From the NCBI GenBank assembly GCA_947445225.1, contig CANFCX010000011.1, forward strand, positions 1-40,303: a stretch of DNA of 40,303 bases, given 5' to 3'. Below the pieces are notes generated by a model that saw nothing but the letters and a program-made list of their open reading frames with translations, searched no databases and was not told where the DNA came from. The stretch comes from Rhodospirillales bacterium. GTDB taxonomy: Bacteria > Pseudomonadota > Alphaproteobacteria > CACIAM-22H2. Position 1 is the first letter of the stretch. Each line of letters begins with the position of its first letter. Below, piece after piece: positions 5,758 through 32,860 of the stretch. Position numbers and translations under genes: made by a program.

Positions 5758-7434
5758 ATGACTCCAGGCGCGCGCGTCCAGGCCGCGATCGACATGCTCG
5801 ACACTCTCGACGCCAGCCGCATCCCCGCCGATGTCGCGGCCGGGGACTATTTTCGCAGCCGGCGTTACATCGGATCGAAGGATCGCGCGGCCCTCGCGCA
5901 GCTTTTCTACGGCGTTCTTCGGCTGCGGGCACAACTCGATTGGTGGATCGAGCGGCTTGGCGGCGGACGGTTGAATTCCCGGAGCCGCGCGATCGCCTAT
6001 CTGGCCGTGGGACAGGGCTGGAAAGCCGAGGACATCCTCGAGGCCTTCGACGGCGGTCAACATCGTCCGGCGCGGCTCGACGATTCCGAATTAAATCTGG
6101 TTCGCCGCGCGGTGGGTCATAAGGCCGAACATCGCGACCAGCCGGATTGGGTAAGGTTCAACTATCCGCAATGGCTTCATCCGGCGCTTTCGGAATTTTA
6201 CGGCCGCGATTTGGCCAAAGTGCTCGCCGGGCTGGCCGTGCCGGCGCCGCTCGATCTGCGCGTGAACCGGCTCCGCACTACCCGGCCGGACGCTCGCCGC
6301 ATGTTGAAAGACGAGGGGGTCGACGCGCGCAGCACGCGTTGGTCGCCGTTCGCGCTGCGCGTCGACGGCAGGCCGCCGCTGGCCTCGCTGGAGGTGTTTC
6401 GCGGCGGCTTCGTCGAGGTCCAGGACGAAGGTTCACAACTGGCTTCGATGCTGGTCGGCGCCCGGCCGGGAATGCGGGTCGTGGATTTCTGCGCGGGTGC
6501 CGCCGGCAAGACGCTCGCCATGGCGGCGGAGATGGAGAATCGCGGTCACATCGTCGCTTGCGATATCTCATCCTCGCGCTTAAAGGGCGCCACGCCGCGC
6601 TTGCGGCGGGCGGGCGCCTTCAATGTGGAGTTGAGGACGTTATCGTCCGAGCGCGACAAGTGGGTGAAGCGACATCAGGGCGAATTCGATCGTGTATTGG
6701 TGGATGCGCCATGCACCGGATCCGGGACCTGGCGGCGCAATCCGGACGCGAAATGGACAATGCGGCGGGACGATATTGTCGAGCTGAAGGCCCTTCAACT
6801 GCGCATCCTGGACAGTGCCGCGCGGTTGGTGAAACCGGGGGGCCGGCTGATTTATGTTACCTGCTCTCTATTGCGCGCCGAGAATGAGGAGCAGGTGGAC
6901 TCGTTTCTCGCCTCCCACGAAGGTTTTACGGTGCTGCCGTTGCCCGAGGTCTGGGCGGCTACGATTGGTGGAGCGCCGCCGCCAGATTCCGGTGGTCGCT
7001 ATCTTCGCCTCGACCCGGCACGGCATGAAACGGACGGTTTCTTTGTCGCCGTGCTGCAACGCGCTGGGCAGGCCACGGATTCAGCCGGGCTTCGGCACAC
7101 ACCGGAGGCGCGGCCGGTAGAGGTTCAGGAGACCGACGGGCATCACCCCCGACCGGCGAAGCGCGTAAAGACTCAGGAGTCCGGCGGGCATCGCCCCCCA
7201 CCGGCGAAGCGGGTAAAGACTCAGGAGTCTGGCGGGCATCGCACCCAGCCGGCGAAGCGGGTAAAGACTCAGGAATCCGGCGGGCATCGCCCCCTACCGG
7301 CGAAGCCGGTAAGGACTCCGGAGTCTGGCGGGCATCGCCCGCTACCGGCGAAGCCGGTAAGGACTCCGGAGTCCGGCGGGCATCGCCCGCAGGGCAAACG
7401 ACCGCATACTCGCAGGCCGCGAGGGACGGCATGA
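5758..7434 (+). CDS. RsmB/NOP-family RNA (cytosine-C5) methyltransferase with repeat tail
   Basis: This encodes 558 residues. Residues up to about 440 are a NOL1/NOP2/Sun-type SAM-dependent methyltransferase: SAM-binding VVDFCAGAAGK near residue 240, motif IV DAPCTGSGTWRRNPDAKW with cysteine 319, and motif VI YVTCSLL with cysteine 369. These are the two cysteines used for 5-methylcytosine formation and release. The substrate is probably rRNA, but the family also includes tRNA enzymes. From residue 450 the protein turns into a repeated basic 16-residue unit (PAKRVKTQESGGHRP type, about six copies) encoded by a 48-bp tandem array, ending in a short Arg-rich tail. I know of no such tail in the family. 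The last four bases overlap the next gene (ATGA). Confidence 0.88.
   Translation: MTPGARVQAAIDMLDTLDASRIPADVAAGDYFRSRRYIGSKDRAALAQLFYGVLRLRAQLDWWIERLGGGRLNSRSRAIAYLAVGQGWKAEDILEAFDGGQHRPARLDDSELNLVRRAVGHKAEHRDQPDWVRFNYPQWLHPALSEFYGRDLAKVLAGLAVPAPLDLRVNRLRTTRPDARRMLKDEGVDARSTRWSPFALRVDGRPPLASLEVFRGGFVEVQDEGSQLASMLVGARPGMRVVDFCAGAAGKTLAMAAEMENRGHIVACDISSSRLKGATPRLRRAGAFNVELRTLSSERDKWVKRHQGEFDRVLVDAPCTGSGTWRRNPDAKWTMRRDDIVELKALQLRILDSAARLVKPGGRLIYVTCSLLRAENEEQVDSFLASHEGFTVLPLPEVWAATIGGAPPPDSGGRYLRLDPARHETDGFFVAVLQRAGQATDSAGLRHTPEARPVEVQETDGHHPRPAKRVKTQESGGHRPPPAKRVKTQESGGHRTQPAKRVKTQESGGHRPLPAKPVRTPESGGHRPLPAKPVRTPESGGHRPQGKRPHTRRPRGTA
7105..7392 (+). repeat. Tandem array of 48-bp palindromic units inside a coding region
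   Basis: Five clear units start at 7153, 7201, 7249, 7297 and 7345, each exactly 48 bp, preceded by a decayed unit at 7105-7152. The last two units contain three palindromes each: CCGGC-GAA-GCCGG, (G)GACTCCGGAGTC(C), and GCGGGC-ATC-GCCCGC. Units 1-3 are more alike to each other and partly decayed, while units 4 and 5 differ at only three positions, which suggests recent duplication. In unit 2 the middle palindrome is kept by paired changes (AGACTC-AG-GAGTCT). The 48-bp period equals 16 codons, so the frame is preserved. Confidence 0.95.
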
Positions 7435-25908: not shown

Positions 25909-28602
25909 TCAGCCCGACTCTTTCCGGCGCGGCTTGGCCGCGGCGCCGGGGGCCTTCTTCACTTTTGCTGTCGCGCCGCTCGTGGCGGGCGTCTTGCGGG
26001 CGGCCGGTTTCTTGCCGCCATTCGTGCGGGCCTTGGGCGGAGCGTCCGCCTTTGCGGCACCTTTGCGTACGGCGCCTTTACGCTTGCTCCCGGTGCCGGA
26101 CTTTGCCTTTCGTTCGGCCAGCAGCTTCACTGCCTCGTCGAGAGTAATGGCGTCGATCTCGGCGCCGCGAGGCAGGTTCGCGTAGACGCCGTCATGTTTC
26201 ACATATGGTCCAAAACGGCCTTTGTGGAGAGTGACCGCGCGGCCATCCGTCGGGTGTGCACCAAGCTCCCGCAGCGGCGCCGCGACACGGCGCCCCTTGG
26301 CCGGTTCGGCGAGGAGCGACACCGCACGGTTGATGCCCATGGTCAGAAGCTCGGATGTCGATTCGGCGCTACGGAAGGCCCCGTCATGTTTGAGGTACGG
26401 TCCGAAGCGTCCGATGCCAGCGGAAATCATCTTTCCGGATTCGGGATGAATGCCGATATCGCGCGGCAGAGCGAGAAGCTTGATCGCCATATCGAGATTC
26501 AACTGGGTAAGGTCGACATCCTTTGGCACCGATGCCCGCTTCGGCTTCACGCCCTCGGCCGCCTCGCCGAGCTGTACGTAACGTCCATAAGGCCCTTGGC
26601 GCAGGCTAACCGGCTGGCTGCTGGCGGGATCGGTTCCGAGCTGCCGCGTGCCGTCCCCCTCGACGGCCTGGCCGTCCTCGCTTTCGACGGCGAGGCGGCG
26701 GGTGTAGCGGCATTCCGGATAACGCGAACAGCCGATGAACGCTCCGAAACGCCCGAGCTTGAGGCCAATACGCCCCTGCGTGCAGGCGGGACACAGGCGG
26801 GGGTCGTGACCGGCTTCGCCGGTTGGAAAGAAATGCGGTCCAAGGTCGGCATCCAGCGCGTCGATCACCATCTTGATGCTCAAATCGCGCGTGCCTTCCA
26901 CGGCGGTGGAAAATTCCTTCCAGAATTCCTGGAGCACGGTCTTCCAATCCAATCTGCCACCGGAGATGTCGTCGAGCTGGTTTTCCAGCTCCGCCGTGAA
27001 ATTGTACTGGACGTAGCGCTCGAAGAAGCTGGAGAGGAAAGCGGTCACCAGCCGTCCCCGGTCCTCGGGAATGAACCGCTTCTTTTCCAGGCGCACGTAA
27101 CCGCGGTCCTGCAACACCTGCAGGATGCTGGCATAGGTCGACGGTCGGCCGATCCCCAGCTCCTCCAGCCGCTTGACCAGGCTGGCTTCCGAATATCGAG
27201 GGGGGGGCTGGGTGAAATGCTGATCTGGGCGCAAGGCGGTGTGTTCGAGCGCCTGGCCTTCCTTCAGCGGCGGCAGGATACGGCTTTCATCTTCGTCTTC
27301 GGTTGGGTCGTCGCGATCCTCGCGATAGACGCGCAGGAACCCGTCGAAGGCGATGACCGAACCGGTCGCCCGCAACACCACCTGGTTGTCGGGGGAAGCG
27401 ATGTCGACGGCGACCTGATCGAGCGCCGCGCTTTCCATTTCGCAGGCCACGGTCCGCCGCCAGATCAGGTCATAGAGCCGTCTTTCCTCTTCGTCGAGGT
27501 GGCCGGCAACGTCTTCCGGGCGGCGGAAAAGATCGGTGGGCCGTATCGCCTCATGCGCTTCCTGCGCGTTCTTGGCTTGGGTGCGGTAGACGCGCGGGCT
27601 CTCCGGCACGTAATTGGGACCGTATTGTTTGCCGATCAGGTCACGCGCCGCGGTGATGGCTTCGCGCGAAAGCTGGACGCTATCGGTTCGCATATACGTG
27701 ATCAGGCCGACCGTCTCGCCGCCGATGTCGATACCTTCATAAAGGCGCTGGGCGACCCGCATCGTCCGGCTGGCGCCGAGACCGAGCTTGCGCGAGGCTT
27801 CCTGCTGAAGAGTCGATGTCGTGAAGGGCGGTTGGGGGTTGCGCCGAACGCGTTTGCGTTCGACCGTGGCGACGGCAAACTTGCGCGCCTGAATGGCGGC
27901 GACGGCCTTGGCCGCGGCTTCCTGATTGGGCAGGTCGAATTTGTCGAGCTTGGCGCCTTCGAGATGGGTCAGCCGAGCGGTCAGAATTTCGCCGCCCGAC
28001 CCGCGCAGATCGGCTTCCACCGACCAGTATTCGCGTGGCTTGAACTTCTCGACCTCGGTCTCGCGTTCGCACACCAGGCGAAGTGCCACCGATTGCACCC
28101 GCCCCGCGGATTTGGCTCCGGGCAGTTTTCGCCACAACACCGGCGATAACGTGAAGCCGACGAGGTAGTCCAAGGCACGGCGGGCCAGATACGCATGAAC
28201 CAGGTCGCGATCCAGCTCCCGGGGATTCTTCATCGCTTCCAGCACGGCGTTGCGCGTGACCTCGTTGAAGACCACGCGCTTCACGTCGATCCTGTCGAGG
28301 GCCTTGCGCTCGCGCAGCACGTTCTCGACATGCCAGGAAATGGCCTCGCCCTCGCGATCGGGGTCGGTCGCCAGGAAAAGCCGTTTGGCGCCTTTCAGGG
28401 CATGGGCGATGGCTTTGATGTGTTTTTCGGCCCTTTCGTCGACTTCCCAGCTCATGGCGAAGTCCTCGGCCGGGCGGACGGAGCCGTCCTTGGAGGGCAG
28501 GTCGCGGACATGGCCATAACTGGCCAGCACCGTGAAATCGCTGCCGAGATATTTGTTAATGGTCTTCGCCTTGGCCGGCGATTCCACGACAACAACGTTC
28601 AT
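25909..28602 (-). CDS. topA: DNA topoisomerase I
   Basis: This type IA topoisomerase of 897 residues relaxes negative supercoils. The Toprim domain is at the N-terminus (VVESPAKAKTINKYLGSDF, then DPDREGEAISWH). The catalytic tyrosine is residue 303 in LITYMRTDSVQLS. After about residue 590 come a four-cysteine zinc-ribbon motif (CPACTQGRIG ... CSRYPECRYTRRL) and two or three topoisomerase C-terminal repeats of the type RFGPYVKHDGVYANLPRGAE. The last 70 residues are rich in Lys, Ala and Pro (GSKRKGAVRKGAAKADAPP), a flexible nucleic-acid-binding tail usual in this group. The gene lies between dprA (46 bp upstream) and rnr. Confidence 0.96.
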   Translation of the reverse strand: MNVVVVESPAKAKTINKYLGSDFTVLASYGHVRDLPSKDGSVRPAEDFAMSWEVDERAEKHIKAIAHALKGAKRLFLATDPDREGEAISWHVENVLRERKALDRIDVKRVVFNEVTRNAVLEAMKNPRELDRDLVHAYLARRALDYLVGFTLSPVLWRKLPGAKSAGRVQSVALRLVCERETEVEKFKPREYWSVEADLRGSGGEILTARLTHLEGAKLDKFDLPNQEAAAKAVAAIQARKFAVATVERKRVRRNPQPPFTTSTLQQEASRKLGLGASRTMRVAQRLYEGIDIGGETVGLITYMRTDSVQLSREAITAARDLIGKQYGPNYVPESPRVYRTQAKNAQEAHEAIRPTDLFRRPEDVAGHLDEEERRLYDLIWRRTVACEMESAALDQVAVDIASPDNQVVLRATGSVIAFDGFLRVYREDRDDPTEDEDESRILPPLKEGQALEHTALRPDQHFTQPPPRYSEASLVKRLEELGIGRPSTYASILQVLQDRGYVRLEKKRFIPEDRGRLVTAFLSSFFERYVQYNFTAELENQLDDISGGRLDWKTVLQEFWKEFSTAVEGTRDLSIKMVIDALDADLGPHFFPTGEAGHDPRLCPACTQGRIGLKLGRFGAFIGCSRYPECRYTRRLAVESEDGQAVEGDGTRQLGTDPASSQPVSLRQGPYGRYVQLGEAAEGVKPKRASVPKDVDLTQLNLDMAIKLLALPRDIGIHPESGKMISAGIGRFGPYLKHDGAFRSAESTSELLTMGINRAVSLLAEPAKGRRVAAPLRELGAHPTDGRAVTLHKGRFGPYVKHDGVYANLPRGAEIDAITLDEAVKLLAERKAKSGTGSKRKGAVRKGAAKADAPPKARTNGGKKPAARKTPATSGATAKVKKAPGAAAKPRRKESG

Positions 28603-32774: not shown

Positions 32775-32860
32775 CAAAGCGCGACTATAGGGCCGAGCGG
32801 GGAAGCCGGCTAGACTCCGAAATCGGCCGAGCCGTGGCGATGGAGCGGGCAAGGAGCGAT

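Follow-up and report, generated by a model that had tools for sequence, protein, structure and literature searches.

A dispersed, genus-specific palindromic DNA element of 48 bp as the probable source of the tandem-repeat tail of an RsmB-type rRNA methyltransferase

Palindromic DNA that invades genes was at first known as a special trait of Rickettsia, before a few other organisms were found to share it. Rickettsial palindromic elements (RPEs) reside in frame within unrelated genes, and the product of a gmk gene carrying an RPE has proved to be an active enzyme (PMC2229807, PMC10969869). Other palindromic repeats known as coding insertions are the WPE of Wolbachia and the coding palindromes of Methanocaldococcus jannaschii (cited in PMC2229807). 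Similarly, intragenic REPs have been reported, including clusters that encode 43-82 aa (PMC3733652); REPs of the CGTC type follow defined rules, with a terminal CGTC tag, a stem of 8-9 bp starting with A/T pairs, a loop of 4-5 and an unpaired CCA tail. ERIC, RU-1 and other bacterial MITEs are non-autonomous dispersed repeats for which fusion to genes in frame is possible (PMC2229807, PMC10969869).

We analysed a window of 40,303 nucleotides from a Rhodospirillales bacterium (contig CANFCX010000011.1), in which the gene for an RsmB-type 16S rRNA (cytosine-C5) methyltransferase ends in an array of 48-bp palindromic units. The tail of this protein is very probably built from a palindromic DNA element that is specific to the genus and dispersed in its genomes, and whose copies are here arranged in tandem; the element would act as non-autonomous selfish DNA. 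Like the RPE, the element is short, hairpin-forming DNA of an alphaproteobacterial host, is dispersed between and inside genes, and is found in frame in unrelated conserved proteins whose orthologues include filled and empty sites (PMC2229807, PMC10969869). Unlike the RPE, which measures about 105-150 bp, it is GC-rich and has a fixed length of 48 bp, or 16 codons; it is read in several frames and both orientations, is amplified in tandem as a whole unit, and occurs outside the Rickettsiales in a genus with a member from Lake Baikal. We do not file it as an RPE, the distinction being one of length. We regard it as a variant of the coding-palindrome kind whose working principle matches that of the RPE. 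It resembles the WPE and the Methanocaldococcus elements by description and differs from them in its host organisms. With ERIC and RU-1 it shares the character of a non-autonomous dispersed repeat; however, the RU classes span 103-168 bp and several of them have TA ends or target duplications, none of which was seen here. The element offers a compact case outside the Rickettsiales with empty sites, clear polarity in one gene, a length of exactly 16 codons and differing tandem copy numbers, and the question of how selfish DNA gives rise to a protein tail becomes directly testable.

The rsmB-type open reading frame occupies positions 5758-7434 of the forward strand, encodes 558 aa (Pfam PF01189, E 1e-43; PF22458) and is flanked by guaB on one side and by a GNAT gene followed by guaA on the other. 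Since the RsmB domain covers residues ~37-436 (Pfam/NCBIfam; the NCBIfam RsmB models stop at residue 435-436), residues 437-558 constitute a tail. The first-pass annotation of this DNA had described an in-frame 48-bp tandem array encoding a basic tail, and this description holds: Tandem Repeats Finder (TRF) reports a repeat at 7125-7388 (period 48, 90% matches, no indels, score 395), and six copies in register, starting at 7105/7107 and spaced by exactly 48, fill 7105-7392 in frame with 16 codons each. The 122 tail residues have a pI of 11.75 and include 9 K, 17 R and 9 H vs 10 acidic residues; the first-pass annotation had suggested that such a tail may help to bind RNA. All units lie on the forward strand. 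Unit 1 (7105-7152, EARPVEVQETDGHHPR) is the most diverged, with 33-35/48 identity to the others; the stems are decayed in unit 2 (7153-7200, PAKRVKTQESGGHRPP), unit 3 (7201-7248, PAKRVKTQESGGHRTQ) and unit 4 (7249-7296, PAKRVKTQESGGHRPL), and near-perfect palindromes are present in unit 5 (7297-7344, PAKPVRTPESGGHRPL) and unit 6 (7345-7392, PAKPVRTPESGGHRPQ). In unit 6, hairpin A spans 7343-7359 (TACCGGC GAA GCCGGTA), palindrome B 7361-7374 (GGACTCCGGAGTCC) and hairpin C 7376-7390 (GCGGGC ATC GCCCGC). The gene ends after the array with 13 protein letters and a stop codon (7393-7434, forward strand), a conserved end common to the Baikal relative.

The unit has the same architecture at all sites read. 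The full element of 48 bp comprises hairpin A (consensus GCCGGC-GAA-GCCGGC), the central palindrome B (GACTCCGGAGTC) and hairpin C (consensus GTCGGGC-TTC-GCCCGAC); as read at genomic copies, A is CCGGCGAAGCCGG, B again GACTCCGGAGTC and C GTCGGGCTTCGCCCGAC. Dispersed copies were surveyed by model and pattern searches and by reading individual stretches in the three genomes of the genus, namely G000 (the window's genome, 2.6 Mb in 157 contigs), G001 (contig CAMDDQ01) and G002 (SHVT01, Lake Baikal), all of them fragmented drafts and at least two of them metagenome-assembled. Comparing the array with its own genome by blastn revealed single copies elsewhere (78-82% over 48 bp, E 1.7e-4 and 3.3e-4), and the hairpin core CCGGCTTCGCCGG occurs exactly 20 times in 2.6 Mb vs an estimate of roughly 0.5 expected from base composition. 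A first covariance model that included the rsmB units (R1) matched strongly in all three genomes of the genus, whereas 58 others yielded background only (E 2e-4 or weaker). To avoid circularity, a second model (R2) was built from 17 copies outside rsmB; it detects the array in the window with E-values of 4e-12 for unit 6 and 1.2e-7 for unit 5 (2.5e-10 for the genome-wide search). At E < 1e-3, R2 identifies about 13 loci in G000, 10 in G001 and 12 in G002, about 35 in all, with the two strands merged and the 17 model-building copies included, and these sites lie both between and inside genes. Among 23 genomes of the family, a match at E <= 1e-4 was obtained in no genus but that of the window, represented by its three genomes. 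Similar DNA was not found in the phage and plasmid collections, no Rfam family matched the element up to an E of 1, and a literature search yielded no report of this 48-bp element.

Aligning orthologous sites of the three genomes yielded five exact 48-bp cases, few sites in total. In rlmN, a net 48 bp is present in G001 and G002 and absent from G000; a tfoX-like gene (TfoX_N) contains the element in G000 but not in G001; an HpaB-like gene is filled at its 3' end in G002 only, with an additional 1-nt difference past the stop codon; and the gene of a ChrR-type anti-sigma factor is likewise filled in G002 only. The fifth site is intergenic: G000 has a small hairpin there, 3 nt of which give way to 51 nt in G001 (counted by hand), again a net 48. 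The spacing between the CxxxCxxC and MGMGEP motifs of RlmN amounts to 60 residues in G001 and G002 and to 44-47 in G000 and 17 outgroup genomes; as judged from the sequences, the rlmN difference is an insertion, not a deletion, with clear polarity. The insert falls into a stretch that is variable in length in the alignment with E. coli RlmN (PDB 3rf9). A DUF484 gene has 39 extra nt, a net difference of 36. The first-pass annotation had proposed that palindromic DNA enters genes in frame, and had held that a unit unique to this locus, together with orthologues showing the same tail with synonymous changes that ignore the palindromes, would point to a protein repeat; the exact filled and empty orthologues, the polarity in RlmN and the copies in unrelated genes bear out the former, and the unit is not unique to rsmB. 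Many copies have inverted ends (CCC...GGG), and the flanks are too diverged for a target duplication to be visible. Since neither a target-site duplication nor a transposase was identified, mobility is deduced from filled and empty sites only. The length differences at atpG and mrdA were small or mixed, and these genes were not counted as insertion sites. A hairpin in a topA-like gene of the window (26804-26824, ACCGGCTTCGCCGGT) was rejected as an insertion, there being no change in length vs the two relatives; this hairpin is perfect in the window's genome only. In a Methyltransf_24 gene (L171:3221-3321), a sub-unit of 27 bp (A and half of B, 9 codons) is arranged in tandem in frame, and the relatives are 69 nt shorter; the same sub-unit forms an in-frame tandem in another ORF (L179:200-310). 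In intergenic DNA before an exonuclease-like gene (L175:1506-1554, L272, L273), the window's genome carries the element where the two relatives have unrelated DNA of about the same size, which may point to a replacement.

The array itself differs between relatives. The comparison of copy numbers suggested in the first-pass annotation gave six units in G000 and three in G002, exactly 144 nt apart, and the genes are otherwise collinear including the last codons. In G001, rsmB is split, one contig ending at codon 438 and another starting directly after the array (C65, C90), as expected if the assembler was unable to cross the array. In other genera of the family, RsmB proteins with a readable C-terminus contain no units and end within a few tens of residues past the domain. 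Units 2-6 have an ATC loop in hairpin C instead of TTC, which suggests that the array arose as a copy already in rsmB was duplicated, and not through a series of new insertions; the shared variant loop also indicates that the rsmB lineage of the element is old, its founding insertion having no empty site within the genus. The RsmB body is under purifying selection between G000 and G002 (75 synonymous and 20 nonsynonymous codon differences), whereas the differences among the units display no synonymous excess. Probably, a single copy of the element entered rsmB close to its 3' end in the common ancestor of the three species, at a point that tolerated extra residues, and duplication of whole units then led to three copies in one species and six in another, while near-neutral drift would have cost the older units their stems. 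The element itself would behave as MITE-like, RPE-like selfish DNA that is moved in trans.

The element is translated in at least 4/6 frames and in both orientations. In forward orientation it gives PAK(R/P)V... in rsmB and PPAKRAG... in the HpaB-like gene, and rlmN (PAGPAGWNPESVGRRPA) and the DUF484 gene use another forward frame; the TfoX-like gene (PSGKARPNPESAGFAG) contains it in reverse, as does the ChrR-type gene, in yet another frame (AVGRSPTDSGVPPAAPE). As 48 bp correspond to 16 codons and stops are rare in such GC-rich DNA, an insertion adds a peptide of 16 residues without destroying the gene. Stop-free frames were rejected as a special property of the element: since 5.0 of 6 frames are open vs 4.7 in shuffles, the open frames result mostly from base composition. 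It is possible, if rather doubtful, that the fixed length is an adaptation, so that a selfish palindrome with a length of a multiple of three, nearly free of stops in all frames, lives in essential genes, and that amplification in rsmB has created a basic tail that varies between species and is perhaps functional. If so, rsmB would be an example of a cassette amplified into a new protein tail.

Alternatively, the element might be of the REP/REPIN type, in which a spacer is enclosed by two inverted hairpins and movement depends on a RAYT (REP-associated tyrosine transposase). A and C are indeed inverted versions of one hairpin type (GAA vs TTC loop) around a spacer, reminiscent of head-head REP dimers, and CGTC/GTAG REPs are likewise small hairpin repeats, often inverted dimers, some of which occur in genes and some in clusters (PMC3733652). 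However, the element has three palindromes per 48-bp unit and no terminal tag, that of the GTAG type being absent from the aligned copies, and it departs from the CGTC rules, with loops of 3 bases, stems of 6-7 bp with GC pairs and CGTC inside the stem. Furthermore, no Y1_Tnp domain (PF01797) was detected in the window's genome (97.5% completeness), the control genomes being positive; the search for a transposase of the RAYT/IS200 type thus found none. We regard a REP-type origin as unlikely.

The repeat might instead be a functional structure, with selection preserving the stems in the 3'-terminal part of the rsmB mRNA or DNA for RNA stability, termination or attenuation. Folded as RNA, the whole array has a z-score of -4.65, and among the 17 dispersed copies 95.4% of cells are paired, with double changes at 5 pairs vs 0.5 in shuffles. 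These compensatory changes may reflect selection, and they may equally stem from different source copies or from templated repair of imperfect palindromes. Within rsmB, the older units lose their stems, and there is thus no sign of structural selection in the array: paired bases number 7/8 in A, 6-7/7 in B and 6/7 in C for units 5 and 6, but only 4-5/8, 4-6/7 and 4-5/7 for units 2-4, in which the frame stayed open, and unit 1 is decayed further. As single-stranded DNA, unit 6 forms three hairpins (z -4.0), while unit 4 lacks such a fold and does no better than shuffles (z +0.6). The first-pass annotation had read paired changes in one unit as a hint at selection on structure; in unit 1 (GGTTCAGGAGACC vs GACTCAGGAGTCC) the pairing needs a register shift of one base and the stem has just 3 bp, which lends weak support to selection. 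Of its further proposal that the freshest copies lie at the 3' end, the better preservation of units 5 and 6, which are 3 nt apart, stands, but not their freshness, as they may be just nearest to the ancestral sequence. Taken together, a functional structure with stems kept by selection is very improbable. In G002, unit 1 of rsmB (L033) has another perfect 7-bp hairpin, GCAAGGG-TCGC-CCCTTGC, where hairpin C would be.

Palindromes might also arise locally, each extended by template switching from a short hairpin already present, so that nothing would move from site to site. In line with this, an empty intergenic site consists of a hairpin (GGGGCCGCGCGGCCCC), and both empty alleles of the chrR site contain one. 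Inverted repeats created in the flanks by insertion appeared striking at hpaB and rlmN, yet in a permutation test the flanks resembled inverted repeats no more than shuffled pairs did (p 0.2-0.4). Since unrelated sites share one 48-bp consensus, beyond what local growth would give, growth in place is hardly credible. Tandem repeats are common in protein tails, and an ordinary protein repeat, with palindromes as a by-product of GC-rich codons, would fit a tail that is in frame, GC-rich, basic and of low complexity; this reading is refuted by the dispersed copies and can virtually be dismissed, as the same DNA occurs outside genes and, within other genes, in other frames and orientations, and as R2, built without rsmB copies, still matches the array.

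Two observations concern intergenic DNA. At 32796-32840 of the window, where a pyrB-like and an anmK-like gene diverge, a weak match to the element (E 5e-4) may be a degenerate copy. A second dispersed repeat, the hairpin GTGGGGGCC...GGCCCCCACnCCCCC, is intergenic (L003, L004, L085, L269; G000 contigs 1 and 43); its loop encloses several of the intergenic copies of the 48-bp element, and one empty hairpin is located at G000 C1:22457-22754.
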